Source: Butyrivibrio sp. (lineage in GTDB: Bacteria > Bacillota > Clostridia > Lachnospirales > Lachnospiraceae). Taken from it: a DNA stretch of 64,000 nt. The stretch lies in assembly GCF_017940685.1 (NCBI RefSeq), contig NZ_JAGAYD010000244.1:1-64000 (forward strand), given 5' to 3'. Both the position numbers and the translations under genes were made by a program. Below the pieces are notes generated by a model. That model was not told the origin of the DNA, made no database searches, and was given only the letters and a program-made list of their open reading frames with translations. How positions within the stretch are numbered: the first letter of the stretch is position 1; each line of letters starts with the position of its first letter. This document shows positions 18,925-39,497 of the stretch, piece after piece.

Positions 18925-19112
18925 TTTAAATTCCTCCTTATTTGGTTTGGTAGTTTATTGGTGATTTATGTAAACGCCGGAATCGGCGGATTTTTAATAG
19001 ATAGTCATATAACGCAAAAAAGAGCCACGGCTGAACTGCCATGACTCTTAAATGTTTTACGTATGCTATTTGACGTTACAAACATTATACCAAAAGTGTA
19101 TTTTATTTGCAA
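18925..19112 (-). promoter_or_regulatory. Leader RNA L1: promoter, terminator and hairpin before the gene at 18595-18924
   Basis: Promoter on the minus strand: TTGCAA (19107-19112), 17 bases, TATAAT (19084-19089), with TACACTTTTGG next to the -10. About 30 bases later comes a terminator stem (19021-19049) with six T, framed by AACGTCAAA before and TTTTGCGTT after. A second hairpin (CGCCG-ATTC-CGGCG near 18973-18986) and GGCGTTTACATAAATC follow, then the ribosome site. The layout is shared with leaders at 22960, 26977 and 39284. Transcription would stop here unless the terminator is overcome. Confidence 0.65.
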
Positions 19113-19122
19113 CTACTGAAAC

Positions 19123-20727
19123 TCAGGCTGACTTATCTTCGAGAAGTGCTACATTATTGGCATCAAACAGATAATAGCTTGTATTGGCCATTGTCTTATT
19201 GTATGATGCTTCGCCCTCGAAGTCGTCGATAACTGCCTTTTCTTCTGCATTCATCTCTGAGTACATCTTCTTTCCATAATCCTGAGGAAGCCATCCCTTC
19301 TTCTGAGAGCCGAAGATATTGAATTTCTTTAACAGCTCCTCGTCTCTGAATACGATATGGCATGTCCCCTTCTTATAAAAAGTGATGTCGAAGTACTTCA
19401 GACGAATATTTTTTGTCTGTCCGGTGCGCTTTGCATAGCTAAGAGCTGAGAATACGCTTATTCCATCAGTAAGACCACCATCCAGATAGTTAAGGGCCTT
19501 CTCGATATCTGAGATTTTCTCAACTACGCTGTAGTTATCGGGCTGATACTCTTTACTGCCCCATCTTGACCATACATCTGCATAGAAAGGTATGATCACC
19601 TTCTTGTTTATCTTCCATGCCGAATTGGTCTTCCATCCGTTGTAATAGTGGATGTTGTTTGATGAGTCATACCATGAGTACTGATGAGAAAGCTCATCAA
19701 ACAGCTCGATGATGCAGTCCTCGATGCCTTTCACAAGATTCTGATTCATCTTTATCTGCATCTGCTTTATGTTATAAACAGAAAACTCATAGTCCTTAAG
19801 CTCGTTGACTTTGCTTAAGAAGTCTGTTTGCAGATTGGATGTCATCTGTCCTGTGATCCTCTTATCCTTAAACAGAGCTGACCAGTATTTCATTCTTTCC
19901 TGTTCAACAAAACTGTTAATGGAAAGCTCATATTTGTTGCTCTTAAGTTCAAGAATCGGGTGAGAATACTTAGAGTATTCCTCATCCAGGCTATCAAGAA
20001 GCCTTGGCGCAAGTGCCCTGTACTCTCTGATGAGTCTTATTCCGGCCTCAACCTCAATCTCGTACCTCTTTACGATAGCTTCAATGAAGTCATTGGGTGC
20101 AAGATCTGTGATGTCCTCCTGATAAGTTCCCTCAGAATAATACTTCTTTTTAAGTCCATCAAGGATATCCGATGTATACTCCGGCTTATCGTAGTGTACC
20201 TTTACCACAGCAATCTCTACATTAGTCTGCCTTTCTGCTGATGAAAACTCCTGCTGCATGTACTCAATAGAAGCTCCTGCCTTTTCAAGCCTGTCTACAA
20301 GCGCTTTTCTAAGGTTTGCATAAGGATTTCTTATTGTCTCAGCATTCAGGATAAAGACTACATCGCCTCCTGACTTTTCCTGCATGTCCAATGCCTTCAT
20401 AAGGTGCTTGTCGCCTTCTGAGAAGGGCGGATTTGCAATGATAAGGTCGTAGGTCTTATTGGTCTTATAGGTAAGGAAGTTGTCATGAACAACTCTCATA
20501 TCCTGACCGATAAGTGTCTTCTGAAGTGTTTCATCCAGTTCGATGCAGTCAAAAGTGATACGACTGTTGTAGTGAGGATAGCTTCCTGCCACTTTTTCAA
20601 TATACTTTACTATATCTCCTTTGCCCGCAGATGGCTCAAGGACTGTTCCGATATAGCGGTAGTCCACCCCATCAAGGATTTTATCAAGAAGTGTTTCAGG
20701 TGTCGGGTAAAATTCTAATAATTCCAT
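19123..20727 (-). CDS. DUF4942 class I SAM-dependent methyltransferase, 534 aa
   Basis: The start YPTPETLLDKILDGVD is the usual opening of this group. SAM motif I is GTVLEPSAGKGDIV (near residue 35) and the catalytic N6-adenine motif is DLIIANPPFSEGD (near 100), so it is probably an active DNA adenine methyltransferase. From about residue 320 the protein matches DUF4942: CIIELFDELSHQYSWYDSSN and WKTNSAWKINKKVI. Such proteins are frequent on conjugative elements and are thought to protect them from restriction. ATG at 20727 behind AGGAGGTTTTAA, preceded by twin hairpins. Confidence 0.85.
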   Translation of the reverse strand: MELLEFYPTPETLLDKILDGVDYRYIGTVLEPSAGKGDIVKYIEKVAGSYPHYNSRITFDCIELDETLQKTLIGQDMRVVHDNFLTYKTNKTYDLIIANPPFSEGDKHLMKALDMQEKSGGDVVFILNAETIRNPYANLRKALVDRLEKAGASIEYMQQEFSSAERQTNVEIAVVKVHYDKPEYTSDILDGLKKKYYSEGTYQEDITDLAPNDFIEAIVKRYEIEVEAGIRLIREYRALAPRLLDSLDEEYSKYSHPILELKSNKYELSINSFVEQERMKYWSALFKDKRITGQMTSNLQTDFLSKVNELKDYEFSVYNIKQMQIKMNQNLVKGIEDCIIELFDELSHQYSWYDSSNNIHYYNGWKTNSAWKINKKVIIPFYADVWSRWGSKEYQPDNYSVVEKISDIEKALNYLDGGLTDGISVFSALSYAKRTGQTKNIRLKYFDITFYKKGTCHIVFRDEELLKKFNIFGSQKKGWLPQDYGKKMYSEMNAEEKAVIDDFEGEASYNKTMANTSYYLFDANNVALLEDKSA

Positions 20728-20740
20728 TTAAAACCTCCTA

Positions 20741-20795
20741 GTACCCCTGCCATAAGCAGGAGTACATTGAATCAATGTTTCCTGCTTTAGGCAGT
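20741..20795 (-). promoter_or_regulatory. Twin hairpins before the DUF4942 methyltransferase gene
   Basis: Hairpin 2: GTACCCCTGC-CATAA-GCAGGAGTAC (20741-20765), 10 pairs. Hairpin 1: CTGCTTTAGGCAG (20782-20794), whose halves match hairpin 2 in reverse complement. Hairpin 2 abuts the ribosome site. Confidence 0.6.
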
Positions 20796-20798
20796 TAG

Positions 20799-21455
20799 TT
20801 ACCATTCAGTTTTAATTGTATAGCGCTGCCCTCTTTCAAGGATGCAGATTTCTTCAGGATATGCCTCCATCTTGTGACCGTCTTCGAACTCGATATTCCA
20901 GGCAGGTAAGCATTCAAGATCCCACTCAGGTGCCTTGCAGCGTCCTGTTACTTTGAAAGGCTTTCCGATATAAGGAATATCTTCTTCGTTATAGCCTGAT
21001 ACATCAGGAAGTACTGGCTCAAAACCAACCTCTTCGTAGATTTTGAAAGCCTTATTTACATAGCCCTTCTCATCCTTTTCAGAAAGCTGGTCCCGACCAT
21101 CGCCATCCTTAAGATACTTGGCATCGAGCTTTTTGAACTTCTCAGAGCCTAAGTCAATGAGTATCCGTTCGAATGTGGCGATAACATCACGGTCTCTTTC
21201 AGATGGCTCATCGACTATCTCATCCTTAAAGTCTTGAAGAGCTTTGTTAGCCTTTCCTCCGGCATAGCCGATATACATTCCTGCGACTGCATCATAATCT
21301 GTGCTGTCGTTAAGGAAATGATATGTGGCTTCTTCTCTAGCATTTTCCTCGGTGTAATCTTCGTCATCAGCATTGTTTTTCATTGCCTCATCCATTGCTT
21401 TTGCAAAGACGGTCTCGAAATACTTCTGATAATCTTTTGCGTTCTTAAATTCCAT
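20799..21455 (-). CDS. Hypothetical protein, 218 aa
   Basis: Start at the ATG at 21453-21455 behind GGAGGACAAC; a longer in-frame start runs through the hairpins. Acidic, helical first half (ENAREEATYHFLNDSTDYDA) and a C-terminal beta part around IPYIGKPFKVTGRCKAPEWD, which could be a small barrel of the kind seen in DUF4314-like plasmid proteins. I do not claim a family. It shares the operon with the methyltransferase. Confidence 0.65.
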   Translation of the reverse strand: MEFKNAKDYQKYFETVFAKAMDEAMKNNADDEDYTEENAREEATYHFLNDSTDYDAVAGMYIGYAGGKANKALQDFKDEIVDEPSERDRDVIATFERILIDLGSEKFKKLDAKYLKDGDGRDQLSEKDEKGYVNKAFKIYEEVGFEPVLPDVSGYNEEDIPYIGKPFKVTGRCKAPEWDLECLPAWNIEFEDGHKMEAYPEEICILERGQRYTIKTEW

Positions 21456-21471
21456 GTTGTCCTCCAATCTA

Positions 21472-21528
21472 CAGACTCCCCATAGGAGAGTCTGCATGTA
21501 GTGTTAACAGTTACTCTCCCTTAGGAGA
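21472..21528 (-). promoter_or_regulatory. Twin hairpins before the gene at 20799-21455
   Basis: Hairpin 2: CAGACTCCCC-ATA-GGAGAGTCTG (21472-21494), 10 pairs with one G-T. Hairpin 1: TCTCC-CTTA-GGAGA (21515-21528). The halves are related as reverse complements. Confidence 0.6.
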
Positions 21529-21540
21529 CTAATAAATTAG

Positions 21541-21909
21541 TTATTTCTGAGGGTAGTCTCTCAGAAGCTGTTCTTTCTTTGCTTCGATAATCTTATCGGG
21601 ATCAGTACCAAACCTGTTAAGCGGCCCGGTAAATGGATCTCCACAATACCAGTAAGCTGTTCCGCCATTATTGATATGCTCCATGATGCTTGTAGGAATA
21701 TCCCTTTTATCAAAGTATTTGTTATCAAGCTGTTCCTGAAGGTTATCCTTAGTTACCTTTGTGAGGGTAAACAGGATCTGTCTGAACTCATCGACTTGAT
21801 ACTTGAGACGGATATACCCACCTTCATCTGAAAGAAAAAATTTTCCATTATCTTTTTCCTCAAACCCTGTATATGTTACAGGGCCGTTCTTTATCTGTGC
21901 TATTGCCAT
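21541..21909 (-). CDS. Hypothetical protein, 122 aa
   Basis: ATG at 21909 with GAAAGGAATTAAA before it. Starts MAIAQIKNGPVTYTGFEEKD, has IRLKYQVDEFRQILFTLTKV in the middle and FTGPLNRFGTDPDKIIEAKK near the end. No family recognised. One base after the previous stop, so co-translated. Confidence 0.65.
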   Translation of the reverse strand: MAIAQIKNGPVTYTGFEEKDNGKFFLSDEGGYIRLKYQVDEFRQILFTLTKVTKDNLQEQLDNKYFDKRDIPTSIMEHINNGGTAYWYCGDPFTGPLNRFGTDPDKIIEAKKEQLLRDYPQK

Positions 21910-21910
21910 T

Positions 21911-22222
21911 TTAATTCCTTTCTTCGCTAATCCTGATATGTTCTGGTCTTATTTTCATGGTGGTATAGACTTCATAATCGCTTCCTGAGTACTCCAACTG
22001 ATAATCATCCGGAAGTGTAATTTCAAGGATTACAAGGTCATCGCCATAAAAGGGTTCAAGCCATATCGGAATCATTTCCTCAGCGTCTTCTAGTGTCTGA
22101 AATAACCAAATTGCTTTTTCCGACTCGCCCATCTCAGAAGCATATGCTCCTTTTTGAGGTATAAGGCCTTTTTTAAAAATGCCATCAAGATTATGACTAG
22201 GGGTTACGTGGTATAACTTCAT
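21911..22222 (-). CDS. ADP-ribosyltransferase-like small protein, 103 aa
   Basis: Start at the ATG at 22220-22222 behind GGAGGGAACC. The opening KLYHVTPSHNLDGIFKKGLI followed by a Gly-Ala-Tyr-Ala and AIWLFQTLEDAEE has the pattern of ART-fold enzymes (a YHxT strand, a helix and GL, then a loop), as in short phage and plasmid toxins or anti-defence proteins. A Glu in DDLVILEITLPDDYQLEY may fill the catalytic place. The NAD site is not fully clear at this length. Co-translated with neighbours. Confidence 0.6.
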   Translation of the reverse strand: MKLYHVTPSHNLDGIFKKGLIPQKGAYASEMGESEKAIWLFQTLEDAEEMIPIWLEPFYGDDLVILEITLPDDYQLEYSGSDYEVYTTMKIRPEHIRISEERN

Positions 22223-22233
22223 GGTTCCCTCCA

Positions 22234-22959
22234 TCAGTCTTTCTCATAAAAAACAGCTGTATTTCCGTCAAGTGCAAGGTAATAGTAACCATTGCCACAT
22301 CCACGGTACTCCTCCCTATAGAACGCATGGTTCTTGTCGGGCTCATAGCTGAATGAGTTATCATAACTTACGATAACTCTTCCCGTGTCATAGGTTCTTT
22401 TCTCTGAGAGTGCTCTGGCGATCTCCTTCTTATAAAGTGAATTTGAATAACCAAAGTACATCGACTTGAATGTAGGATCTGAAAGTTCACCGTAGTAGTC
22501 TGAATCAACATATCCGTCCTTATCGAAAAGGAAAGGATATTTGACAGCGTAATCGCCAAAGAAAGCCTTTCTTTCTGCTGCTGTCTTTGTCTTATCAAAC
22601 CACTCATTAGGCCTGCTGTCACAGATCCTGCAAACAGCTTTGTAATCCTCATAAGTCATCTGTGAAAGCCCGGTATAGACCTTGAGAATTTCCGGGCATA
22701 ATCCCGACTTCTCCAAGATATTCTTTGCTTTGACGATCTTCTTATGCCACTTTTCTGCCTCATTAACAATTTTTACCTGATAAGGAAGCTGCACGAATGC
22801 TTCTTCAGAATATCTTCTGCCATATCTCGAACGGCGTGGAGCGAATACGAAGATTGTTCCACCCTTTTCCTTCATACATCTGACATTCTTTTTGTTTTCA
22901 TCCAATACAACAAACTTCCCATATTCAGGGATAGTGTCGAGATAAATCTTTGATACCAT
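22234..22959 (-). CDS. Hypothetical protein, 241 aa
   Basis: Start at the ATG at 22957-22959 behind ATTGGAGAAAAT. The middle is helical (SQMTYEDYKAVCRICDSRPN, then AERKAFFGDYAVKYPFLFDK), and the end Tyr-rich (YREEYRGCGNGYYYLALDGN). No family recognised. First gene after leader L2, so it heads this operon. Confidence 0.65.
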   Translation of the reverse strand: MVSKIYLDTIPEYGKFVVLDENKKNVRCMKEKGGTIFVFAPRRSRYGRRYSEEAFVQLPYQVKIVNEAEKWHKKIVKAKNILEKSGLCPEILKVYTGLSQMTYEDYKAVCRICDSRPNEWFDKTKTAAERKAFFGDYAVKYPFLFDKDGYVDSDYYGELSDPTFKSMYFGYSNSLYKKEIARALSEKRTYDTGRVIVSYDNSFSYEPDKNHAFYREEYRGCGNGYYYLALDGNTAVFYEKD

Positions 22960-23156
22960 ATTTTCTCCAATCTCCGCTTTCATGCGGTAAATCTGTTTAA
23001 TAGTTATTTATTTAAACGCCCATTAGGACGGAATTTAGGGAAATCTATTTGAAAACGTCAAAAAAGCCGCTTACAGGAATGTAAACGGCTTAATGATTTT
23101 AACTATATTTTGTTTGACGTTGCCTATATTATACTATAAGTGTAGTCTGTTTGCAA
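22960..23156 (-). promoter_or_regulatory. Leader RNA L2: promoter, terminator and hairpin before the gene at 22234-22959
   Basis: Promoter: TTGCAA (23151-23156), 17 bases, TATAAT (23128-23133), spacer ending CTACACTTATAG. Terminator stem AAGCCGTTTACATT with the matching AAGCGGCTTTTTT (23058-23092) is framed by AACGTCAAA and TTTGACGTT, a perfect outer stem. Then CGTCC-TAAT-GGGCG and GTTTAAATAAATAAC lead to the ribosome site. Confidence 0.7.
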
Positions 23157-23309
23157 TCAGTCATTTTTCTCGTCAGGCTTAGAGTGAGCAGCAAATTCAA
23201 GACCAAGCTTGATGCACCTTTTTACCTCAGTAATAAAGCTCTCTTCACTTGTTCCTGCGTAAGCGCCTGTTGAGCCATCCTTATTTACATATACGATATC
23301 GTATGTCAT
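23157..23309 (-). CDS. Small hypothetical protein, 50 aa
   Basis: ATG at 23309 behind AAGGAGGAAAACACT. MTYDIVYVNKDGSTGAYAGT at the start, then a helix with VKRCIKLGLEFAAHS. No family recognised. Last gene before the promoter of L2, so probably the end of the operon that begins near 26976. Confidence 0.6.
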   Translation of the reverse strand: MTYDIVYVNKDGSTGAYAGTSEESFITEVKRCIKLGLEFAAHSKPDEKND

Positions 23310-23322
23310 AGTGTTTTCCTCC

Positions 23323-24063
23323 TTAATCCATTCGTACACCAAATGAGAGATAGTTTTTGTTGAATTCCTTTGTATATACGAAAATCCAGTCTCCGTAGTA
23401 GTTTGCAAGGTCATCCTCGGTTTTTCCCTTGAAATGTTCCTGAGCCTCTGAGAGAGTCATGCCCTTTGTTTCCTTGGTAAGCTCCTCGATGGCCTTAGAG
23501 TATCTGTCCTTAAACGAATATGCCTCGTCATCGTCATAGGCGATCTTCATGTTGACATCTTCATTATCCAGGCAGTTTACTCCTTCAAGCCTGAAGACTA
23601 TGCTGCCGATCCTTATGGGCTTCTTTGACTCTTTCTCAATATATCCTGAGATAGGTTCTACAGGAGCTGATATCTCACATTTTGTATAACAGTCTGAATC
23701 AGGAACATAAACCTCTGAGGTATTACTGCAATCAAGATATCTGTTCAGCCATGTTACATCACAGTCAGGATATTGCTCGCAATATTCATCATATGCAAAC
23801 TGCAAAGTGGCTGTGATATCTTTCACGGTATCTTCAAGGCTTTCAAATGCATACATCTGATCATCCCCGAGATTATTTGTGTACTGGTAGCCATAAAGAG
23901 GCGTTAAGCTGAAGTGCTTCACGTTCTGCTCTGACAATGCCTTGTCATACACTATAATGTCGTGATAATTCTTAGAATGTGAATCAAGCCTTTTAACAAA
24001 TCCTTCCATCGGCTGACATCCGGGTGAGAAACCTCTTAAGCGCATTCCGTAAAAATATTTCAT
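23323..24063 (-). CDS. Hypothetical protein with RLRGFSPGCQP motif, 246 aa
   Basis: Start at the ATG at 24061-24063 behind GAGGATAATTAAA. The N-terminus MKYFYGMRLRGFSPGCQPME followed by IIVYDKALSEQNVKHFSLTP is a pattern I have seen in many Firmicutes plasmid and phage proteins (tyrosine-rich start, RGFS, then a YDxPLS segment); function unknown. The end GDWIFVYTKEFNKNYLSFGV is beta. Twin hairpins precede it. Confidence 0.7.
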   Translation of the reverse strand: MKYFYGMRLRGFSPGCQPMEGFVKRLDSHSKNYHDIIVYDKALSEQNVKHFSLTPLYGYQYTNNLGDDQMYAFESLEDTVKDITATLQFAYDEYCEQYPDCDVTWLNRYLDCSNTSEVYVPDSDCYTKCEISAPVEPISGYIEKESKKPIRIGSIVFRLEGVNCLDNEDVNMKIAYDDDEAYSFKDRYSKAIEELTKETKGMTLSEAQEHFKGKTEDDLANYYGDWIFVYTKEFNKNYLSFGVRMD

Positions 24064-24078
24064 TTTAATTATCCTCAT

Positions 24079-24126
24079 AGCATCCCCCTATGCAGGGATG
24101 CTTAAATCTATTACCCCGCATAGAGG
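24079..24126 (-). promoter_or_regulatory. Twin hairpins before the gene at 23323-24063
   Basis: Hairpin 2: AGCATCCCCCTATGCAGGGATGCT (24079-24102), about 8 pairs. Hairpin 1: CCCCGCATAGAGG (24114-24126), again nearly the reverse complement of the centre of hairpin 2. Confidence 0.55.
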
Positions 24127-24136
24127 ACGTTGCTAT

Positions 24137-24493
24137 TCAGTTTTCAAGAGCCCATTTACTATGTGGCAGAATATATGCTGCATAGTTGATTACCTCTCTA
24201 AGGGAATCCCAGTCGAGCTGCAATAAAGAAGTAATGCGTTCTTTTCTGCTGTCAACTTTCTCCCACCAGTGAGGATAGGTCTCTTTTATTTTGCCTTTGT
24301 TCCACTCATTAACAAGCCACCCAAATCTTTCCGGTCCGATATTCATATCCCACCAGTTGTTATCCTCGGTGTCTTTGTTGCCCTGCTTGTCCTCAAACCA
24401 TGTCTTGATAGTATCCGGGGAACAAACCTTAATACAGAACATCCGCTGATTTGTGGATTCTTCTTTATAAATTCCTTCTTTGATAAGCGCCAT
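24137..24493 (-). CDS. Hypothetical protein, 118 aa
   Basis: Start at the ATG at 24491-24493 behind AGGAGGTGGCTTGAA; the preceding gene stops within this spacer. Sequence opens MALIKEGIYKEESTNQRMFC and holds NWWDMNIGPERFGWLVNEWN, a Trp-rich segment. No family recognised. Confidence 0.65.
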   Translation of the reverse strand: MALIKEGIYKEESTNQRMFCIKVCSPDTIKTWFEDKQGNKDTEDNNWWDMNIGPERFGWLVNEWNKGKIKETYPHWWEKVDSRKERITSLLQLDWDSLREVINYAAYILPHSKWALEN

Positions 24494-24494
24494 T

Positions 24495-25265
24495 TCAAGC
24501 CACCTCCTGCTGTCTCTTATAGTATTCAGCTCTTGCATCCATGTAAGCTATTCTCTGAGTCGTGGTGAATCCAAGCGTATCAAAGCACTTATTGATATCA
24601 CTCTGAGAATCCTCATAAGATACTGTTCCAAATACCGAAAGAACATCCCAGTCGGCCTGAAGATTTATAGCATACTCGTGATTGTACATCTCATAAAGGA
24701 ATGCTGATTTCTGATACTCATAGTTATCAGCAACATTTTCCTTCTGAGCGTTGAGCTTATCCAAGAGCGCTATATGCTTATCGACAAAGGATTTAAGGCT
24801 TTTATCCATGTAGCAAAAACCTACACGATTGAAGATCATCTCCCCAGCCTTTTCTCTTCTTTCTTCTCTCTCCTCATCACTACCAATGAAAAACATAGAC
24901 ATGTAGTCATGCTGCTTTGCATAGTAGTTATGAAGAAAATAACTCTTCTGCTGATAATCGTCATAGCTCTTAAGTGGCCCTGCAATCTCTTCTTCTGTAA
25001 AGAGCTTGGTGTTCAGTGTGTCGATATACCACTGCCTTAAGCCTGCAAGGCCTCTTTCCTTGAGGATATAGCTGTGAAGATGTCCGAAATCATCGGTAAT
25101 CTGATTCTCATTCTTGAATACAAGATAGCTGTATCCGCGAAGAGGACCGAAATCGATGAAATATACATCGTAGCCTTTTACCTCCATAGTCTCAATGGCG
25201 ATGCTTGCTGCATCTGCCTGTGAAAGAGCTCTGATCTCGTCATATGTTAAGTTATTTTTATCCAT
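24495..25265 (-). CDS. Hypothetical protein, 256 aa
   Basis: ATG at 25265 behind AAATGGAGAAAA, itself just after a hairpin. The first 60 residues (IAIETMEVKGYDVYFIDFGP) look like a globular alpha/beta domain, then a helix-rich, coiled-coil-like region (DKHIALLDKLNAQKENVADN) and a tail. No family recognised. Likely one of the main products of this operon. Confidence 0.65.
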   Translation of the reverse strand: MDKNNLTYDEIRALSQADAASIAIETMEVKGYDVYFIDFGPLRGYSYLVFKNENQITDDFGHLHSYILKERGLAGLRQWYIDTLNTKLFTEEEIAGPLKSYDDYQQKSYFLHNYYAKQHDYMSMFFIGSDEEREERREKAGEMIFNRVGFCYMDKSLKSFVDKHIALLDKLNAQKENVADNYEYQKSAFLYEMYNHEYAINLQADWDVLSVFGTVSYEDSQSDINKCFDTLGFTTTQRIAYMDARAEYYKRQQEVA

Positions 25266-25278
25266 TTTTCTCCATTTA

Positions 25279-25341
25279 GCCCCTGTAAAAGGGCAAGGTC
25301 TCTTGATGTTATCTCCAACCTGATGCCCTTTTTGTAAGGGT
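25279..25341 (-). promoter_or_regulatory. Twin hairpins before the gene at 24495-25265
   Basis: Hairpin 2: GCCCCTGTAAAAGGGC (25279-25294). Hairpin 1: GCCCTTTTTGTAAGGGT (25325-25341), related to the first as reverse complement. Confidence 0.5.
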
Positions 25342-25354
25342 AAATGTCGTATTT

Positions 25355-26976: not shown

Positions 26977-27181
26977 ACGTAATTCCTCCTTTACGCAAAA
27001 AAGACCCACCGGGCCTTCCTTTCTAAGATTTTTATAGTTATTTATTTAATCGCCCATGGGGCGTTATTTTAATGGGATTTGATAACAGAAAAAGAGCTGC
27101 TATCAAGATAGCAACTCTTATGGTTTGACGTTTAGTATTTAACTTTGAAATTATTATACTATGGGCGTAGTATAAATGCAA
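26977..27181 (-). promoter_or_regulatory. Leader RNA L3: promoter, terminators and hairpin before the gene at 26710-26976
   Basis: Promoter: TTGCAT (27176-27181), 17 bases, TATAAT (27153-27158), spacer ending CTACGCCCATAG. Then AACGTCAAACC and a terminator stem (27090-27119) followed by CTCTTTTTC. Next CGCCC-CATG-GGCG and GATTAAATAAATAACTAT, as in L2. A second GC-rich stem with TTTTTT (around 27000-27015) lies close to the ribosome site. Confidence 0.65.
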
Positions 27182-31625: not shown

Positions 31626-31865
31626 AATGATTTCCTCCTTGTTATGAGTCTGTGACGCTTCTTGCGCCCGTTTAATTGTTTTCATAATAAATATGGAATA
31701 TTGGTTCTCTGATAATAGCTAATTCTTATCAGTTGTTAAGATTATGTGTAAAAGAATGAGTAATAAAATTAGAACATAGAAAAAGAGCCCGGTATTCGGA
31801 CTCTTAGAGGGAACATATTATATTTATTTTTTAGCATAATATAACATAATGGGTATTTTTGCTGT
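31626..31865 (-). promoter_or_regulatory. Leader L5 with terminator before the gene at 30708-31625
   Basis: A stem of the form AAGAGTCCG...CGGGCTCTTTTT (31777-31807) lies between the gene and a weak promoter (TATATT near 31838-31843). Upstream is ATACCCATTATGTTATA, resembling the shared motif. Less certain than L1-L4; the AACGTCAAA arm is absent. Confidence 0.45.
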
Positions 31866-32142: not shown

Positions 32143-33441
32143 TTAATCTGAAGAAATAGTCTTTTTTAAGAGCTTTGGACTAAGAACTATATCCTTGGGA
32201 GAGATGTCTTCAAGACCTAACAAGGTAAAGAAATCTTCTGGGTACATTGCTCTTGCTACAGCGTAAGGAGATTTGCCGTGAAGCTCTTTTCTTGTATAGC
32301 TGTTGATGTGATCCATCATCCTGCTGATATCAACCTGAGAAAACGGCTCAAGGGAAGTACCTTTTGGTATGACATACCTGATAAATTCGTGATTTTTCTC
32401 GCAGCCGCCTTTCTGCTCGGGATGATTGGGTTCACAGAAGTATATGAACGTGCGCTCATCACCGTTTATAGAGCGCTGCATTCCGTCGATGTCAGCAAAC
32501 TCATGCCCGTTGTCAGTCAAGATATACGGAAACATCTCTTTGAACAGCTCAGTTCCTAGGGCTTCTTCGATCATATCGAGACAAGCAACCACATTCTCAG
32601 ATGTCTGGGACTCCAAGATAAATGCGAGTTGTACTCTGGAGACAGGAAAGAACAGTGTTAGCAATACTGCATCTGAATCCTTGGACCCTTCAACGCAATC
32701 CATCTGAGGTATCTCGATAGGATTATCTTTAACAAGTTCCAAGTAATTGTCGTATTTATGCCCGTCTTTTACGACCAACATCGTCTTATAATCTTTTGGG
32801 CGTTTCTTTCTCTGACGGCGCTTTACAGCGTTTCTCAGATCAATGTCCCGTGCTTCAAGCTCACAGCTCTTTATCATCCTGCGGAGCGTAGATTCGCTAA
32901 CAGGAAGGTCGTTTGTCTGAACTATGTGATAAACAGACTGTCCGTTCATTATCAATGGAGAGACTGTTTCATCGAGATTTATAAGTTCTTCCGCTGTCAG
33001 GTCATACCCGTTCCGGCTTTCTACAAGTGTGTTGCGATACTCAATATCTGCCTTGGATGCCTTGTAAAAGAACTTTCCATAATGACAGTTGTAAGTCCTG
33101 GGGCAGCCATTACAGAGCTTTAGCTTGCGGCCAATCAGTCTTTCACAGTAAGCCTTGGAATAGTCCGTACAGTACTTCCTTGCCTTGGAACATGAGCGAC
33201 ATTCTTTCTTGCAGCTTTTGCTGCCACATACATTCCTGGCTTTACAATCGTAAAAATAGATGCAGTCACAGGGCCTTGTTTTGTTCTCTGTTACATGAGT
33301 TTTTATCTCGCGGGAAATGGTTGATGGAGATTTGTCGAGACGGGCCGCTATGTATCTCAGAGACTTCTGTTCATTGAGAAGTGCTTCGATCCTGATGCGA
33401 TCATCCTCTGTGAGATGTTTTTTAGATACTGGTTTTTGCAT
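32143..33441 (-). CDS. IS30-family DDE transposase, 432 aa
   Basis: The N-terminus has a helix-turn-helix (KSLRYIAARLDKSPSTISRE) typical of IS30. Then comes a Cys-rich stretch (about 12 Cys around residues 58-115), unusual but known in clostridial members. DDE acids: IPQMDCVEG (Asp near 246), LTDNGHEFAD (Asp near 315) and EKNHEFIRYV (Glu near 350), with the IS30-type CEPNHPEQKGGCEKNHEFI neighbourhood. So catalytically intact. ATG at 33441 behind GAAAGGATGACTT. Confidence 0.9.
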   Translation of the reverse strand: MQKPVSKKHLTEDDRIRIEALLNEQKSLRYIAARLDKSPSTISREIKTHVTENKTRPCDCIYFYDCKARNVCGSKSCKKECRSCSKARKYCTDYSKAYCERLIGRKLKLCNGCPRTYNCHYGKFFYKASKADIEYRNTLVESRNGYDLTAEELINLDETVSPLIMNGQSVYHIVQTNDLPVSESTLRRMIKSCELEARDIDLRNAVKRRQRKKRPKDYKTMLVVKDGHKYDNYLELVKDNPIEIPQMDCVEGSKDSDAVLLTLFFPVSRVQLAFILESQTSENVVACLDMIEEALGTELFKEMFPYILTDNGHEFADIDGMQRSINGDERTFIYFCEPNHPEQKGGCEKNHEFIRYVIPKGTSLEPFSQVDISRMMDHINSYTRKELHGKSPYAVARAMYPEDFFTLLGLEDISPKDIVLSPKLLKKTISSD

Positions 33442-33769: not shown

Positions 33770-34402
33770 ATGGATGATAATCAGAAAAAGCTTATTGAAG
33801 AAACTTTTAGAAAGAATACAGGAAAACTTATAAAAGACGCCCGGAAAAAGAAAGGCTGGAAGCAGGCATACCTTGCTGATAAGGTCGGTGTAAGCCCCAG
33901 TGTTATGTCGGATATTGAAAACGGGAAGATGGACATGCCACTGTCACGGCTTGCCGTAATAAGTAACATCCTTGAAATGGACTCGTATCTGTTTAAGGAT
34001 GACCTGCTCATAAGCGAGGTGCTTAAAGCCCTCGCTGAGTATGGGTATAAGGCAGAGACCCATAAGCATGATTATGCAGAAGATATTTTTATTCCTGAAT
34101 ACTACACTATGAGAATATTTGCGGTTAGAAAAACACAGGACGGACCACATACAGAAACCTTAAAACCGACAGAACAAGAAGATGCTATATTCAACAAACT
34201 GATAGATCAGGCGCAATATATTTGTCAGAAGGAAGCCCTACTAAGAGCATATACGCTTATAAATTTCTGTGGTTGGTACATAGATACAGATTTACAGACA
34301 GTTGCCAGAGCAGTTTGCAGATATGCCATCAATGTTTCAAATTCTGATGATAGGGCATGGATGAAGAATTACTTAAATAAGTGTAGGCATGGCATTGAAT
34401 AA
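33770..34402 (+). CDS. XRE-family transcriptional regulator, 210 aa
   Basis: ATG at 33770 behind GGAGGATCGCATTT. Residues about 15-70 are a Cro/C1 helix-turn-helix: IKDARKKKGWKQAYLADKVG, then VSPSVMSDIENGKMDMPLSR. The remaining 140 residues are a ligand or dimerisation domain of unknown type, helix rich. It is one of the few plus-strand genes and lies between the transposase and the Rpn-like gene, so it likely controls the transposon. Strong terminator follows. Confidence 0.85.
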   Translation: MDDNQKKLIEETFRKNTGKLIKDARKKKGWKQAYLADKVGVSPSVMSDIENGKMDMPLSRLAVISNILEMDSYLFKDDLLISEVLKALAEYGYKAETHKHDYAEDIFIPEYYTMRIFAVRKTQDGPHTETLKPTEQEDAIFNKLIDQAQYICQKEALLRAYTLINFCGWYIDTDLQTVARAVCRYAINVSNSDDRAWMKNYLNKCRHGIE

Positions 34403-34445
34403 AAAGAAAATCCCCAGATGCGATTGCATCTGGGGATATCTTTTT
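34403..34445. terminator. Bidirectional terminator between XRE and Rpn-like genes
   Basis: ATCCCCAGATGC-GATT-GCATCTGGGGAT (34410-34437), 12 pairs, with TTTTT after it on the plus strand and TTTTC on the minus strand. Both converging genes end here. Confidence 0.9.
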
Positions 34446-34467
34446 GAAAGCCATAGTTTCATTTAAC

Positions 34468-35283
34468 TCAAACGATCATTTCATTTTCAGAAAGGAGCTT
34501 CTTAGCGTCCTTATATGCTCTCTGAGAGACCCCAACAAGCTTGCAAGTGTCTTTTAATGACATTTCGCCATTACGCATTGCATTGTCAATAAGCTCAACT
34601 ATATCGAGAGCTCTCTGAAAATCAGCTTTCTCTTGTGCATAATCTTCAACTATCTGACACATACGACTTACTCCCTTCTTGTTTTCTTTGTAATACTTCA
34701 CTTCCTTTGTAAGGTTAGGGAACTTGGTATTATCTACCTTCTCTTTCTCGAAGCACTCCATGAGTTCTGAAAGAGTTGTTCCGTCCTTCACAGCAGTATT
34801 CACATAGACTTCAGATAAACCATTGTTTACCATTTCATAGCCCATGCCTTCATCTGTTATCACTGAATGTACATGATAGATATTCCTGTTCTTTTTAAAT
34901 ATATCGAACCGGGATATGAATACCATTAGCAGTGTCGGTACAGATGAAAAATCACTACCTTTTGGAGTTTTATTGGCTGTAATAAGAGATGCATTGTACC
35001 TAACACGCTTGACGTGATCATCGTTATCCGACTTTTGCACTTCTATATTACAGATCTCTCCATTTCCCAGGATGCACAGCGCATCCAACCTTACTGATCT
35101 GCCGAATAGATTTTGTATGCCCCTTTGTGCCACCACGGTTTTTACAATCAGCTTGTCATCATTTAATATTACTCTTAATATTTCCTGACAGACTTTCTTG
35201 TTTTCCATAAGTCGCTCAAAGAACACATCATCTATCGGCCTGAGTCTTTGGACTTTTTCAAGAGTTTCCTTGTTACTCATCAT
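34468..35283 (-). CDS. Rpn/transposase_31-like PD-(D/E)XK nuclease protein, 271 aa
   Basis: The start RPIDDVFFERLMENKKVCQE and then SVRLDALCILGNGEICNIEVQK is the hallmark of the Rpn (recombination-promoting nuclease) / transposase_31 group: D...EVQ corresponds to the PD-(D/E)XK acids with Gln in place of Lys, as usual. The C-terminal 60 residues form a helix-turn-helix-like end (SLKDTCKLVGVSQRAYKDAK). These proteins cut DNA and favour RecA-independent recombination. ATG at 35283 with GGAGAAAT before it. Confidence 0.8.
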   Translation of the reverse strand: MMSNKETLEKVQRLRPIDDVFFERLMENKKVCQEILRVILNDDKLIVKTVVAQRGIQNLFGRSVRLDALCILGNGEICNIEVQKSDNDDHVKRVRYNASLITANKTPKGSDFSSVPTLLMVFISRFDIFKKNRNIYHVHSVITDEGMGYEMVNNGLSEVYVNTAVKDGTTLSELMECFEKEKVDNTKFPNLTKEVKYYKENKKGVSRMCQIVEDYAQEKADFQRALDIVELIDNAMRNGEMSLKDTCKLVGVSQRAYKDAKKLLSENEMIV

Positions 35284-35948
35284 ATTTCTCCTTTTACTGA
35301 GTCTTGTTTATAGTTGCATATATAATCAGAGACTCAGCCATAGGCGGTCCCTGGAATAAAGTGTTAATAGAGACCTAATCCCTATGGTAAAGGAGATGCT
35401 CCTTTATATTGTGTTTCCGGCTTTCAATTTCTCCGTTTCCATTCTAGTTTCGCTATTAATATAGCATATTGAAACAAGAATAAAACGATAGCCTCCTTTT
35501 CGTATATAACAAGGAGCTCTTATATGCACCCTGTTCTTCAATACCTTTTGATATTGGCCTGCTTTTAAAGCATTCCTTTATACAATAATTGCCTCTCGCA
35601 AGGACTGTGCAGACTGTTCAATCGAACAGAAAGCTTCAAACGTGGTTGAGAATCCAACGCACAAAATAAGCATAAATATTATACTTATATTATAGCAAAT
35701 CCCTCAGAATACGCAATTTTCTAAAAATCGTATAAATATAGCTCCGAGAATAATTCTCCGAGCCTGTTTTATAAATCTTTATATGACGTGCTGAACTATT
35801 TAACTTTTGATTCGATAACTTATAGCTACATGTTAAAACAAAATGCTTAACATGTCAAATTATGCTTATGCAAATCAGACTAAATGCAACACATATTACT
35901 TATCAAAGTAAATCGAACAGCTTGTTGCACTTACCTTGAAAAATTACT
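35284..35948. other. Non-coding right end of the 4.0-kb transposon
   Basis: No gene of credible size. It holds a weak hairpin CTCCGAGAATAATTCTCCGAG near 35741-35761 with TTTT following, several short repeats of TTTATAT and the right inverted repeat. This may be the promoter and leader of the Rpn-like gene. Confidence 0.4.
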
Positions 35949-36241
35949 TGAAGTCGGTTGTGGGATGAATCGCCTTTACACGAACAGTTGTTCGTGATAG
36001 AATAAGTCTATCGGAACCTTGAAAACTGTATATAGGTGGTTGTGCCATGAATCTAACAAACCAAGAACCTATGGCACGTAAAATATACAAGGTGTTTAGT
36101 TCCCAAGCGCCACAAGCGCATATATATAACACTTAAAGTATGCCGAAGGGATTTCCCGACGGAGTAGCGGCACTGTGAACGTGTCTTACTATACCGCATG
36201 GTATTGTAGAAACCATTTCCGATATTGTCGGTGATGGTAGT
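35949..36241 (-). mobile_element. HEARO-like element copy 2, main part
   Basis: Starts on the minus strand directly after the TGA stop of the gene at 36242-36529, that is after ATGA. About 277 bases equal copy 1 at roughly 90%. Its 3' end is separated to 31903-31947 by the transposon. As in copy 1 there is no protein gene. Confidence 0.6.
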
Positions 36242-36529
36242 TCATGCGCTTATTTTAGTTGTACCACGGATGACTGTAGGAATACTTGTCACATCCACTG
36301 CTTCGACAATGATGCTATTGATTGAGTTTTCCTCGCCATCTTTACCTTTTAGATATGTCTCCCATGCTCTTTTAAGGGTATTCATGGCCTCATCTTCATT
36401 CTTTGCATATCCGGGCATTACCATGGATGCGGTTCCGTTATCAAAGTTGATCCTGACCTGTACAGAAATGTTTTTGCCGGTATACAGCTCATCTACTACT
36501 CTCTTACTCCAAGCTTCATCAAAATTCAT
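36242..36529 (-). CDS. Hypothetical protein, 95 aa
   Basis: Starts MNFDEAWSKRVVDELYTGKN, with strands ISVQVRINFDNGTASMVMPG and a C-terminal IIVEAVDVTSIPTVIRGTTK. No family recognised. The stop codon TGA forms the ATGA target of the HEARO-like element, so the gene is not damaged. Confidence 0.65.
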   Translation of the reverse strand: MNFDEAWSKRVVDELYTGKNISVQVRINFDNGTASMVMPGYAKNEDEAMNTLKRAWETYLKGKDGEENSINSIIVEAVDVTSIPTVIRGTTKISA

Positions 36530-36546
36530 ATATAGTTCGTATTCTC

Positions 36547-36726
36547 CTATCGTTTAGTATCAGGTAATTGTTTTCCTACAATTTTACTTGCGGGCCAAGC
36601 CACTGTCAAATTGCCATCCTTATCCAGCTCGCTGCACATGGTATCATAGCCCTCATGCATAAGCTCAACAAGAAGCGATCTTGCCTGCTCTGCGGGCAAT
36701 GTTTTGGATTTCTGCCAATCGTTCAT
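36547..36726 (-). CDS. Small hypothetical protein, 59 aa
   Basis: ATG at 36726 behind GATAGGAAAATAAT. Soluble, with MNDWQKSKTLPAEQARSLLV then MHEGYDTMCSELDKDGNLTV. No family recognised. 17 bases before the next gene on the same strand. Confidence 0.6.
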   Translation of the reverse strand: MNDWQKSKTLPAEQARSLLVELMHEGYDTMCSELDKDGNLTVAWPASKIVGKQLPDTKR

Positions 36727-36853
36727 ATTATTTTCCTATCCTTTGCATCTAAAAAGGCCTGCGGGATATACCTCACAAGCCCTTCCAGAAATAGGAGGTT
36801 TATATGCTATATGGCAAACTGCGCATCGGGGTAATACGCAGTTAAAAGCAAAT

Positions 36854-37912
36854 TTACTCTCTTGTCTTTCTTAGCTCGTACTCATAATTGGCCATAATAA
36901 GGTCTTTCTCGTCGATCCCGAGCTTTTCTGCAATCTCTTCTGCATCGCCACCATTTACCTTGAGTGCTGTGACCATAGTGGCCATATAAAGCATCTCTGC
37001 GGCTCTTGGAGCATTCTCAATAAGAGTGGCAAATACTTTCTGCATTTCCTCTGAGGAAACATCCTGATGCTTTGCGATCTGTCTGCAAAGTGCTGATTCC
37101 TTTTTAAGATCAATCTCTGCAAGAGACTGTTCCGGGCTTCCATTTACTTCTGTCAGTGCATAAAAAGCGTTTGGTTCGCCTTTTTCATTCTCAAGTGTTG
37201 TTAGTTCTACTTCGTTTGGCATTTCCTTATCATCCTCCTTGTAGTATTCATTAAGATCCTCAATAGTTTGAACCATTGTCTCTTTGGGCTGAGGAGTTTC
37301 AGCCTCAGGCTCGGAAGTGACCTCTTCTGCTTCTGAAGGTGCTTTTTCCAGCTCATCGGGAATTTCTTCAAGTTCCGGTTCTGGTTCTGGTTCAACATCT
37401 ACTGCCTTGGGCGGAACATAAACAGGATCTTTTTTCTCAGAATCATTCTTAGTATCTTCATGGACAGTAGGAGCAGCTTCCTTAGGTGTATCTTTCACAG
37501 GCTCCTTCACATCCAGCTCTTCTTCGATCATCTTCTCAAGATTATTCTTCTTTTCCGGCTCCTTATAATCGGGTCTCTTCTTAATGAAACTGCCTACCTT
37601 GTAAGGATGGAAATTGGGCTTTTCTGTATCCAGGTCTTTTCCCTGTAATGTAGCTGCAATATCAAGAGCTTCAATAACCCTGTCGATCACAACATCAAGC
37701 TGAAGAGGGGTTGTCATCTTGGGAAGCCGTACTGAATTGTCTCTTCTTCCATTAAACTCAACAAATACATAGCACTTCTTAAACTTCCTGACGATTCCTA
37801 CAACACCCTGATCTCCGTTGTAGACTCCAAACTGTGACTCCGCATAACCGTCTTTGATGGGCTTCATGAGCGCCGTGGCGATAATCTTCGCCTGTTCCTC
37901 TGTAATCTGCAT
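36854..37912 (-). CDS. Hypothetical acidic protein, 352 aa
   Basis: Start at the ATG at 37910-37912 behind AGAGGAGGATTTT. N-terminal 100 residues fold (IIATALMKPIKDGYAESQFG, VVGIVRKFKKCYVFVEFNGR). Then comes a 110-residue proline/glutamate linker (EPEPEPELEEIPDELEKAP), and a helical end (MLYMATMVTALKVNGGDAEE). No family recognised. It has its own promoter at 37961-37989 and is read divergently from 38129. Confidence 0.65.
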   Translation of the reverse strand: MQITEEQAKIIATALMKPIKDGYAESQFGVYNGDQGVVGIVRKFKKCYVFVEFNGRRDNSVRLPKMTTPLQLDVVIDRVIEALDIAATLQGKDLDTEKPNFHPYKVGSFIKKRPDYKEPEKKNNLEKMIEEELDVKEPVKDTPKEAAPTVHEDTKNDSEKKDPVYVPPKAVDVEPEPEPELEEIPDELEKAPSEAEEVTSEPEAETPQPKETMVQTIEDLNEYYKEDDKEMPNEVELTTLENEKGEPNAFYALTEVNGSPEQSLAEIDLKKESALCRQIAKHQDVSSEEMQKVFATLIENAPRAAEMLYMATMVTALKVNGGDAEEIAEKLGIDEKDLIMANYEYELRKTRE

Positions 37913-37960
37913 AAAATCCTCCTCTGATTGATACGCAAATGGTGTATTATTGATATGTCT

Positions 37961-37989
37961 AATATACACCGTGTGTGGAATAATTGCAA
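37961..37989 (-). promoter_or_regulatory. Promoter of the gene at 36854-37912
   Basis: Minus strand: TTGCAA (37984-37989), 17 bases, TATATT (37961-37966), spacer ending CCACACACGGTG, a weaker member of the shared motif. Confidence 0.65.
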
Positions 37990-38042
37990 TACTATTTTTA
38001 TGCGCATCGCATTTTATCGCATTTCTTCAAATAATAAATGTA

Positions 38043-38071
38043 TTGCAAAAATTATCCTTTGGCTGTATAAT
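38043..38071 (+). promoter_or_regulatory. Promoter of the paralogue pair 38129-38778
   Basis: Plus strand: TTGCAA (38043-38048), 17 bases, TATAAT (38066-38071). Spacer ends CTTTGGCTG, only partly like the shared motif. Confidence 0.65.
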
Positions 38072-38128
38072 ATGACTATAAAATAAATAATTGCTTTTAC
38101 GGGCATTGTCCCAGGAAGGATCATATAG

Positions 38129-38455
38129 ATGGAGGCTAAGAAAATTAAGATATATATGAGTGAAAATATGAGGGCTGAACTCGCCCAGGAAGTTGATAAG
38201 ATTGATGTCCCGGAGGTGAGGGACTTCTGCATAAATCTTATTGAGAGATTCGATGGGAACCTTGAAAAGAATAAGGATAAATATAATAGCCTTCTTAAAG
38301 ATACTGAAACCGGTTTTGAGCATCAGGAAGTTGATGAGAATGCTGAATATATGTTTATCATTGATTGTCCGGTGGCCGTGAAGGAATATATCCAAAGAGA
38401 AGAGGAAACTTTTATTCCCTTCTCTCTTGAACAGCAGATAAAAATACGTTTATGA
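38129..38455 (+). CDS. Hypothetical protein, 108 aa
   Basis: ATG at 38129 behind AGGAAGGATCATATAG. Opens MEAKKIKIYMSENMRAELAQ, then a helical segment with CINLIERFDGNLEKNKDKYN and ETGFE. The next gene has the same plan (KKIRLSSEDYAEL, NFGTGFE), so the two are distant paralogues. Possibly a ribbon-helix-helix or antitoxin-like pair; not certain. Confidence 0.65.
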   Translation: MEAKKIKIYMSENMRAELAQEVDKIDVPEVRDFCINLIERFDGNLEKNKDKYNSLLKDTETGFEHQEVDENAEYMFIIDCPVAVKEYIQREEETFIPFSLEQQIKIRL

Positions 38456-38466
38456 GAAAGGATAAA

Positions 38467-38778
38467 ATGAATATGAATTATAGAGATAGCTTTGGTGAAG
38501 TAAAGAAAATAAGACTTTCTTCTGAGGATTATGCGGAGCTTAAAAAGGTTCCTGAACAGGTCGCTGATCCCGGTCTTAAAAGTCTCGTAGAGGCTATGAT
38601 AACTGAATATGACTTAAAGAAAGCTAAGTATATTAAGAGATGTGAGGACTCTGGAAAAGAGGTTCTTGATAATTTTGGAACCGGATTTGAGATATATGTC
38701 CCTGAATATCTTAATAATAGCATCAGTAAGATTTCTGAACTTGCTCCTTCTCTTAATGACTTCGTAGAGCAGTTTTAA
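38467..38778 (+). CDS. Hypothetical protein, paralogue of 38129-38455, 103 aa
   Basis: Start set at the ATG at 38467 behind AGAAAGGAT; an ATG at 38452 overlaps the previous stop (ATGA) but lacks a ribosome site. KKIRLSSEDYAELKKVPEQV followed by NFGTGFEIYVPEYLN parallels the upstream gene. Co-translated pair, terminator directly after. Confidence 0.6.
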   Translation: MNMNYRDSFGEVKKIRLSSEDYAELKKVPEQVADPGLKSLVEAMITEYDLKKAKYIKRCEDSGKEVLDNFGTGFEIYVPEYLNNSISKISELAPSLNDFVEQF

Positions 38779-38786
38779 GAAAAAAT

Positions 38787-38826
38787 AAAGACATCCTTGG
38801 GAATAGCCCCTTGGATGTCTTTTCTT
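38787..38826. terminator. Bidirectional terminator
   Basis: AGACATCCTTGGG and the matching CCCCTTGGATGTCT (38790-38821), with TTTT on the plus side and TTTATTTTTTC on the minus side. Shared by converging genes at 38467-38778 and 38828-39283. Confidence 0.85.
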
Positions 38827-38827
38827 T

Positions 38828-39283
38828 TTACTCTACGACTGTTGCAGTAACAAAATCAAAAGGAAGTCCCGTGATTTTATTTCTGTAATCTGAATCGTGC
38901 TTCTGAAGAACGAACTCATAAGCTGATACATTCTTAATAGCTCCATTCTTCTTTATCATGCGTCCGAGGTTTTCATCAACAAAATCTTCTGATGTAAGTC
39001 TTGGTGATGCGGCAGGATCTAAAACCCATTTTGCCAGCCTCTTAGCCTCATACTGTGATGAAAACATGTTATCAAGAGCAATGTTGAACTCATTTTTGCT
39101 GGCAAATGTCGAACAGATTTTGTGCTCTCTTTTTGCTCTTCTAACTAGCTCTTCATCTGTGAGGCCGATGTGATACATTGACATGTGGCCGCCTGCTGCC
39201 AGGTCAATAAGCTCATAATTTACGAGCTCACCTTTACGCATGATTTCTTTTGCGAGTGCTTCAATTCTTTCTTCTTTAGTCAT
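38828..39283 (-). CDS. Hypothetical protein, 151 aa
   Basis: ATG at 39283 behind AAAGGAGAATAAATT. Helical, with LVNYELIDLAAGGHMSMYHI early and YEFVLQKHDSDYRNKITGLP FDFVTATVV at the end. The late part has a pattern of polymorphic nuclease-toxin cores, but I cannot name a family. First and only gene after leader L4. Confidence 0.6.
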   Translation of the reverse strand: MTKEERIEALAKEIMRKGELVNYELIDLAAGGHMSMYHIGLTDEELVRRAKREHKICSTFASKNEFNIALDNMFSSQYEAKRLAKWVLDPAASPRLTSEDFVDENLGRMIKKNGAIKNVSAYEFVLQKHDSDYRNKITGLPFDFVTATVVE

Positions 39284-39497
39284 AATTTATTCTCCTTTGA
39301 CTGTAAAAAGAACCCACGCCCCCTGTAAGGCGTAAGGTTTAACAAACGCCTTTGGCGTGAACACTCATTTTGGCAGGAAGTGTTCTGTAACTAACGTAAA
39401 AAGAAGCCATGAGAGGTTAATCGTCATGACTTCTTTGGCTTTTACTATGCTATTTTTACGTTAATATAATATTACTACGCCTGTAGCATATTTGCAA
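39284..39497 (-). promoter_or_regulatory. Leader RNA L4: promoter and terminator before the gene at 38828-39283
   Basis: Promoter: TTGCAA (39492-39497), 17 bases, TAATAT (39469-39474), spacer ending CTACAGGCGTAG. Terminator stem GAAGTCATG...CATGGCTTCTTTTT (39400-39436) is framed by TAACGTAAAAA and TTTTTACGTTA, an 11-bp perfect outer stem. A GC-rich pair (ACGCC...GGCGT near 39313-39360) precedes the ribosome site. Confidence 0.7.

Follow-up and report, generated by a model that had tools for sequence, protein, structure and literature searches.

Here we report that four leader regions (L1-L4) in a 64,000-nucleotide (nt) stretch of Butyrivibrio sp. DNA (contig NZ_JAGAYD010000244.1 of assembly GCF_017940685.1; hereafter, the window) belong to a larger family of homologous leaders, named type I, which precede operons on probable conjugative plasmids of this genus. 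An earlier note, made from the letters of the window alone, had described four homologous leaders with a terminator between the promoter and the first gene. On re-reading of the sequence, all four were confirmed at their positions on the minus strand (Table 1), and the observation is real and larger than first described, since 28 type I leaders are now recognised: 13 on two contigs of the window genome (eight on C96, which holds the window, and five on C24) and 15 on contigs C14, C16, and C21 of Butyrivibrio sp. M55 (G033). We propose, with a probability slightly above one half (about 0.52), that each leader attenuates transcription on a conjugative Butyrivibrio element and that a factor of the element, by reading the boxes anchored at the transcript start, would permit read-through.

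Type I leaders share a layout in which a sigma-A-type promoter containing an operator-like dyad is followed by a start-site box, a second box, an intrinsic terminator, and the gene. Among the 28 sequences, the -35 element is TTGNNN or TTANNN, the spacer measures 17 nt in most, and the TATAAT-like -10 element is followed by 5 nt, a pyrimidine, and an AACGTCAAA box, the arrangement from the -10 element onward being kept in 28/28. The 17-bp spacer of the earlier note was found again as TTGCA(A/T) + 17 nt + TATAAT in L1-L3 and as TTGCAA + 17 nt + TAATAT in L4. As RNA, the start-site box reads 5' AACGUCAAA. With the A of the inferred start numbered +1, the letters A+1, G+4, T+5, and A+7 are present in all 28 leaders, A+2, A+8, and A+9 in 27, and C+3 in 24 (A in four), and position -1 is T in 23 and C in five; the search expression itself required A+1, G+4, and T+5, and no leader failed it. 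By reading, the second, CGTAAAA-like box is placed some 14-16 nt behind the first. Promoter, boxes, and terminator together occupy about 100 nt, or 150 nt with a GC-rich hairpin that aligns in 21 of the 28 leaders, and the conservation of the boxes extends beyond that of promoter and terminator. The invariant distance from the -10 element to the box suggests that the box functions as the first letters of the transcript or within the initiating complex. The earlier note mentions neither the second box nor the operator dyad nor the fixed spacing to the start site.

Two sequence motifs attributed to the window leaders were retained in part. The shared left arm AACGTCAAA is clustered in the leaders, with four occurrences in the window, all within L1-L3 and one of them being the right arm of L2 (shuffles predict 0.47, and none of 100 reaches four), but in L3 it is box 2 that reads AACGTCAAA, box 1 being AAAGTTAAA. 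The GC-rich hairpin described for L1-L3 was recovered, but the TTTAAATAAATAAC tail is exact in L2 only, with one mismatch in L3 and two in L1; taken by itself, the tail lacks significance in the window, since four matches were also reached in 11 of 100 shuffles. In leaders L011 and L025, and likewise in L033, an additional conserved stretch with TTTCTTTTTT at its end lies between GC hairpin and gene, before the ribosome site; it matched no Rfam family at the gathering threshold.

The extent of the family was established with covariance models and pattern searches. Model R1, built from five leaders, retrieved 13 leaders in the window genome and 13 in M55; a core regular expression added two further M55 leaders and missed one known leader (C14:6231); and model R2, built from all 28, regained the sets of 13 and 15 when 80 genomes of the genus were searched, with no convincing type I match beyond the window genome and M55. 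The only other R2 match (G013:C10, E 0.036) was not accepted after its sequence was read. The core expression matched 30 sites in the two elements, 28 of them with a hairpin after (27 leaders, one matched twice), versus 0-5 sites and none with a hairpin in ten Markov simulations. A promoter-only pattern, applied to the whole assembly with up to three mismatches, gave nine sites and none with a reversed control; seven are leaders, and the other two (C10, C67) proved on reading to be palindromes at contig ends. The earlier note had proposed a covariance search of Lachnospiraceae plasmids; among 397 genomes of the family, R1 matched solely the window genome. Among 392 genomes of the order, R2 matched the window genome and gave one weak hit (E 0.0097) that was unconvincing on reading. 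Sensitivity of the family- and order-wide searches is low because just 7-9 candidates per genome were scored. Ten pattern matches in viral contigs, none with an R1 E-value below 0.4, were taken as chance. In agreement with the impression that the layout corresponds to no named RNA family, Rfam gave no match at the gathering threshold either in the window or at the 13 leader loci of the window genome, the best among the latter being RF02353 with 29.3 bits versus 39 required. A possible fifth leader, for which no place had been given, was not recovered in the window with R1 at E up to 1; the spot most like it (31685-31860) has a terminator, AAGAGTCCG...GGGCTCTTTTT at 31805-31783, without a matching promoter or box.

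The terminator hairpin consists of 12 bp, and its T run ends 55-72 nt after the inferred start (one T run being slightly shorter than parsed). In the alignment of 28 leaders, 11 of its 12 pairs are changed on both sides; for the terminator and the GC hairpin together, this holds for 13 of 17 pairs, a count as high as in none of 500 shuffles. Pairing is possible in 95.2% of the 436 cells of both helices versus 33-55% in slid controls, a percentage biased upward by the fitting of the alignment to this very structure; changes on both sides are evident in the unaligned stems, e.g. AAGAGTCATGGC, AAGCCGTTTACA, and AAGAGTTGCTAT. The idea that selection acts on structure, since letters differ while pairing is kept, is thus borne out for the terminator stem. 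In the window, the predicted terminators between promoter and gene were present in the terminator scan for L1 and L3 and read from the sequence for L2 and L4. At C96:92830 and its M55 counterpart C14:50000, the ribosome site and start codon directly follow the terminator and GCGT, which leaves no room for a second promoter, so that expression from the leader promoter would need read-through. A second promoter after the terminator (TTGACG...TAAATT, 23061) was considered; some leaders could have it, but others do not retain its -35 part, and at C96:92830 the space for it is lacking.

The plan of the type I leaders recurs with other letters in a second set, named type II. Relatives of the leader-associated YqaJ protein occur in plasmid pCY186 of B. 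proteoclasticus B316 (33%) and in G056:C11, and R2 gave no match in genomes G100 or G056 at E up to 0.05 and just 26.0 and 23.2 bits on parts of pCY186. In type II leaders, the -10 element is followed after 5-6 nt by TGTT(T)AGTAGT, then by ATTRTTG, an intrinsic terminator, and the gene, and the start box as RNA reads 5' GUUUAGUAGU. A regular expression for this layout found 11 sites in pCY186 and G056:C11 versus none in ten simulations; the hairpins at 73075 and 79872 are weak. Model R3, built from ten type II leaders in which TGTT is invariant, matched 10 of the 80 genus genomes at E <1e-6, eight of them outside the model-building set. At nine loci read in those eight genomes, promoter, start box, and terminator were seen in 9/9 and a gene was called after seven; many of the contigs concerned are short, so not all are shown to be plasmids. 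Matches in G031 and G099 (E 0.008) were read and not accepted, and R3 found nothing in the 397 family genomes, a search with 7-9 candidates scored per genome that is uninformative without a known positive. Like type I, type II leaders stand before YqaJ (pCY186, G056) and SSB (pCY186, G115) genes, and primase-like genes lie behind leaders of both types (by reading; DUF3854 in the pCY186 annotation). The elements with the two kinds of leader have a common backbone of an XRE gene (30-33% identity), a gene divergent from it, ParAB, and parts of a type IV secretion system (T4SS).

The shared order of start box, second box, terminator, and gene points to conditional termination and, together with the invariant start spacing, favours attenuation that is relieved by an element-specific, box-reading factor. 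In the proposed mechanism, which draws on sequences, spacing, conservation, covariation, and placement, an element-encoded XRE repressor (C96:83560-84069) would bind a TACRC-type dyad between the -35 and -10 elements. Transcripts from the promoter, given its invariant distance to the box, would begin at about AACGUCAAA and soon carry CGUnAAA. The intrinsic terminator, suggested by sequence and covariation, would end most of these transcripts 55-72 nt past the start, before the ribosome site, and would also face transcripts from the preceding co-directional operon. A factor of the element would then recognise the start-anchored boxes and let the polymerase pass, so that only transcripts from the element's promoters would be licensed; this might happen during transfer or establishment, the time at which genes for DNA handling and anti-defence would be needed. 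A bolder reading, less likely than not, is that the 5'-terminal codes are specific to the element and mutually different (AACGUCAAA versus GUUUAGUAGU), so that they might tell the element's own starts from upstream transcripts, with a cognate factor that reads the code letting the polymerase through the terminator behind each such promoter.

Several points weigh against this proposal. Both termination and read-through are predictions from sequence, and similar features would be expected from a leaky terminator without regulation. Descent accounts for part of the shared spacing, since the leaders are paralogues, and transfer-linked expression is suggested by analogy only. No antiterminator was found among the chosen proteins scanned against Pfam, PHROGs, and NCBIfam. 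A single NusG-family match per genome was obtained at E up to 0.01, on contigs C101 and C19, and no NusG paralogue of the LoaP/RfaH type was detected on the leader-bearing contigs.

The leaders might instead be unregulated insulators, in which the terminator mainly ends the upstream operon and blocks stray transcription, and the leader promoter leaks through enough to give low expression. With our own caller of open reading frames (ORFs), a co-directional upstream gene was found for 24 of the 28 leaders, within 70 bp in 17, so upstream transcripts would meet the leader terminator; on pLS20, EGeRS1-B blocks read-through from upstream promoters (the available part of PMC8708921). We consider this explanation unlikely: the terminator is retained in four leaders whose upstream gene is divergent (C96:39497, which is L4, C96:99417, C21:41428, and C14:53513); the promoter stands before rather than after the terminator in 28/28, which would be wasteful for an insulator; and the boxes are conserved beyond promoter and terminator, in a layout that the second family repeats.

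The spacer between the -35 and -10 elements holds an operator-like motif, TACRCYNATRGTA, with 20 occurrences in the two elements versus none or one in each of 20 simulations. Fifteen of these lie in leaders and five before other genes, among them the XRE/HTH gene C96:83560-84069 (HTH_3, E 5.3e-7), the upstream region of which also carries TATAAGTGTACACTTATA. The XRE protein probably gates the leader promoters via this dyad. The motif is on the opposite strand at C16:5738 by pattern and reversed in L4, C96:92954, and C14:50000 by reading, which is compatible with a repressor operator and not with an oriented antiterminator-loading site.

This orientation bears on a mode of antitermination like that of Q or AlpA, in which a factor would bind the spacer, catch the polymerase at a sigma-dependent pause (TAACGT, -1 to +5), and ride through the terminator. 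AlpA, as far as the available text describes it, requires A+1 and T+5 in a pause hexamer from -1 to +5, with a binding element between the -10 and -35 elements and a terminator downstream (PMC9371919), and Q/AlpA action is described at a phage late promoter and the alpB promoter (PMC6606751, PMC9371919). The type I leaders resemble this arrangement in their promoter-embedded element, conserved initial transcribed sequence, and predicted intrinsic terminator soon after the promoter, and the position of the hexamer matches strikingly, with a pyrimidine at -1, A+1, and T+5 in 28/28. In contrast to Q/AlpA, however, there are 13-15 promoters per element; the spacer motif is reversible and, as for a repressor operator, also occurs before five genes without such leaders; type II leaders begin with TGTT and lack the hexamer; and no Q or AlpA homologue was found in the PHROGs scan of ten proteins (of 180 ORFs on two window-genome contigs). 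Antitermination of this kind is doubtful here.

Another possibility is that the short terminated RNA of about 55-72 nt is itself the product, as a small RNA family or a sponge, and the gene is expressed by leak. Each element has 13 or 15 similar modules of start and terminator, and the start sequence is more constant than the outer pairing, but every leader has an operon after it and the letters of the terminator stem vary between leaders, and we regard such a role as quite improbable.

The outer stem, in which the earlier note had the left arm closed by a matching right arm, stood up in part. With box 1 alone, own arms pair better than swapped arms (-6.42 versus -5.40, p=0.001; p=0.024 for the 13 window-genome leaders and p=0.022 for the 15 M55 leaders), but with the whole left segment the gain is not significant (-6.72 versus -6.43, p=0.18), own pairs being far better there than shuffled letters (-3.5, -3.3). 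Five versions with differing arm parses were run, of which the whole left segment and the fully parsed box 1 are quoted; a version with one arm misparsed gave p=0.059 for M55 alone. The 28 leaders are not fully independent in this test because orthologous pairs are included. Box 2 has no own-pair advantage with the right arm (p=0.81; 0.66). The outer pairing reaches -9 kcal or better in 13 of 28 leaders and is weak (above -3.7) in eight (L3, C16:27921, C16:5738, C21:31998, C14:6376, C21:9970, C96:99417, and C14:53513). The 11-bp outer arm of L4 is indeed perfect by reading, and L4 and C16:15363 both have A at +6 with a matching TTTTTACGTT arm. The outer pairing thus appears to be a significant but modest and non-universal feature. 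Since the left box is kept even where pairing is weak, it seems to be conserved primarily for its sequence where the transcript begins and only in part for pairing in a stem. The same data speak to a 5'-end stabiliser, by which the outer arm would close the 5' end of the read-through RNA and protect the message while the terminated RNA is left unprotected: the advantage of own arms and the 13 strong pairings agree with it, but the eight weakly pairing leaders keep box 1 and the second box is unexplained, which makes this role very improbable. A single-strand (Frpo-like) promoter, active just on entering DNA, would suit a conjugative element with unidirectional leaders on each contig, but we give it hardly any credence, as promoter pairing in single-strand folds of the 28 leaders is no higher than in flank-shuffled controls (mean 0.54 versus 0.56).

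Genes controlled by the leaders were assigned from gene order and family scans. They include a YqaJ-type recombinase followed by a RecD2-like helicase, a small gene with SSB further on (third in its operon), NAD-dependent DNA ligase, anaerobic ribonucleotide reductase, the RNAse_A_bac protein behind L4, a DUF4942 methyltransferase (19123-20727) to which the L2 operon extends by gene order, a DarA_C protein in the L3 operon, and, in M55, a methylase-like gene that is below its cut-off; many others have no assigned family. The YqaJ gene on M55 contig C14 is 89% identical to that of the window genome, and relatives from phages (eight records) reach 24-30%. Leader L010 (C24:9351-10568) precedes a protein with WGR and PARP domains on a conjugative element, a 501-aa gene being next. 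A coupling protein of the TraG/VirD4 type, part of which lies within the window, indicates that the element is conjugative; the conjugation and partition genes comprise TraG/T4SS-DNA_transf, a TraG P-loop protein, and an MreB-like protein, and the element also carries relatives of pCY186 ParA, ParB, and ParM and transfer genes. The leader-bearing elements are probably conjugative plasmids, although C96 and C24 have no end overlaps and remain unjoined, and a tyrosine recombinase gene makes an integrative element possible. No leader was found with R1 or the core expression between C96:39497 and 89932, the stretch that holds the T4SS block. A protein with an S1 RNA-binding domain lies within the transfer gene block of both kinds of element (window 59961-61166 and pCY186 35633-36901, 28% identity); from its annotation alone, the window protein is a candidate for the read-through factor. 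Also seen by eye in the window were a metal ABC transport cassette (binding protein, ATPase, permease) upstream of L3 (27188-30610), an IS605 OrfB/TnpB-like gene (14321-15685), and an IS30-type transposase (32143-33441), and ARAGORN reported a tRNA-like gene with unresolved anticodon (11092-11164).

Table 1. Leaders, their parts and adjoining genes in the window, and type II sites elsewhere (positions refer to the window unless another sequence is named)
Feature	Position	Strand	Remarks
Leader L1	18955..19112	-	R1 148.8 bits
L1 -35; -10; box 1 AACGTCAAA	19112-19107; 19089-19084; 19077-19069	-	sequence reading
L1 terminator stem; right arm GCGTTA; GC hairpin	19049-19020; 19015-19010; 18988-18975	-	
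First gene after L1	18595..18924	-	109 aa, no Pfam match
Leader L2	22997..23156	-	R1 137.7 bits
L2 -35; -10; box 1	23156-23151; 23133-23128; 23121-23113	-	
L2 terminator stem; right arm TTTGACGTT; GC hairpin	23091-23064; 23062-23054; 23030-23017	-	
First gene after L2	22234..22959	-	241 aa (249 aa from earlier start), no Pfam match
Leader L3	27031..27181	-	R1 135.6 bits
L3 -35; -10; box 1 AAAGTTAAA; box 2 AACGTCAAA	27181-27176; 27158-27153; 27146-27138; 27132-27124	-	
L3 terminator stem; GC hairpin	27119-27092; 27063-27051	-	
L3 second terminator-like hairpin and T run, directly before ribosome site	26997..27019	-	by reading; paired in predicted fold
First gene after L3	26710..26976	-	88 aa (99 aa from earlier GTG), no family match
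Leader L4	39284..39497	-	R1 50.1 bits
L4 -35; -10 TAATAT; box 1 AACGTAAAA	39497-39492; 39474-39469; 39462-39454	-	
L4 terminator stem; right arm TTTTACGTT; second terminator	39436-39400; 39401-39393; 39336-39313	-	11-bp outer arm
Gene after L4	38828..39283	-	151 aa, RNAse_A_bac domain (CdiA-CT type), E 4.5e-8
TraG/VirD4-type coupling protein	62958..63968	-	part within window
Type II sites	NC_014390.1: 52352, 54564, 57101, 73075, 79872, 166729, 168311, 170276		
Type II sites	G056:C11: 76619, 78292, 80253, 91242		

Leader terminators can be relieved or enforced by RNA-binding proteins such as HutP, TRAP, and LicT. Unlike in these systems, the boxes described here are anchored at the transcript start, and neither an antiterminator hairpin (by eye) nor such a protein was found. 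Among Gram-positive conjugative elements, ConAn of pLS20 and canT of Tn916 are described, in the available parts of the sources, as a single antiterminator that is located close to the head of a long operon and acts on many terminators (PMC8955417, PMC11658703). The present elements are similar in that terminators lie inside operons and chosen polymerases would be licensed, and differ in that a start box and a terminator are provided separately for each of 13-15 operons. As in the EGeRS1 and EGeRS2 sequences of the pLS20 family, a conserved sequence is repeated before several operons of one conjugative plasmid. The available text describes EGeRS1 as 420-750 bp long, the one tested being without a constitutive promoter, and EGeRS2 as strong promoters that contain operators for a ribbon-helix-helix (RHH) repressor, the promoter of the repressor gene itself among them, with TTATCCC dual motifs (PMC8708921). 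In contrast, promoter, boxes, and terminator are here combined in one unit of about 100 nt, the available EGeRS text making no mention of terminators (PMC8708921), and the regulator with the dyad upstream is of the HTH_3/XRE type. Searches of open-access literature on antitermination (Q, LoaP, and conjugative elements), attenuation leaders, leading regions, Butyrivibrio megaplasmids, and pCY186 retrieved nothing that named the layout, which is weak evidence of absence. The leaders may be a new form of the attenuation and antitermination known from conjugative elements.

If the proposal is true, these leaders would constitute a distributed attenuation regulon on conjugative elements, in which many operons, those for DNA handling among them, would each have a start-anchored tag and a terminator, as opposed to a single antiterminator at the head of one operon. 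The repeated modules and the two codes should make the factor findable by swapping boxes. Such a regulon would also provide a handle on how large plasmids of Clostridia silence, and then express, their genes.

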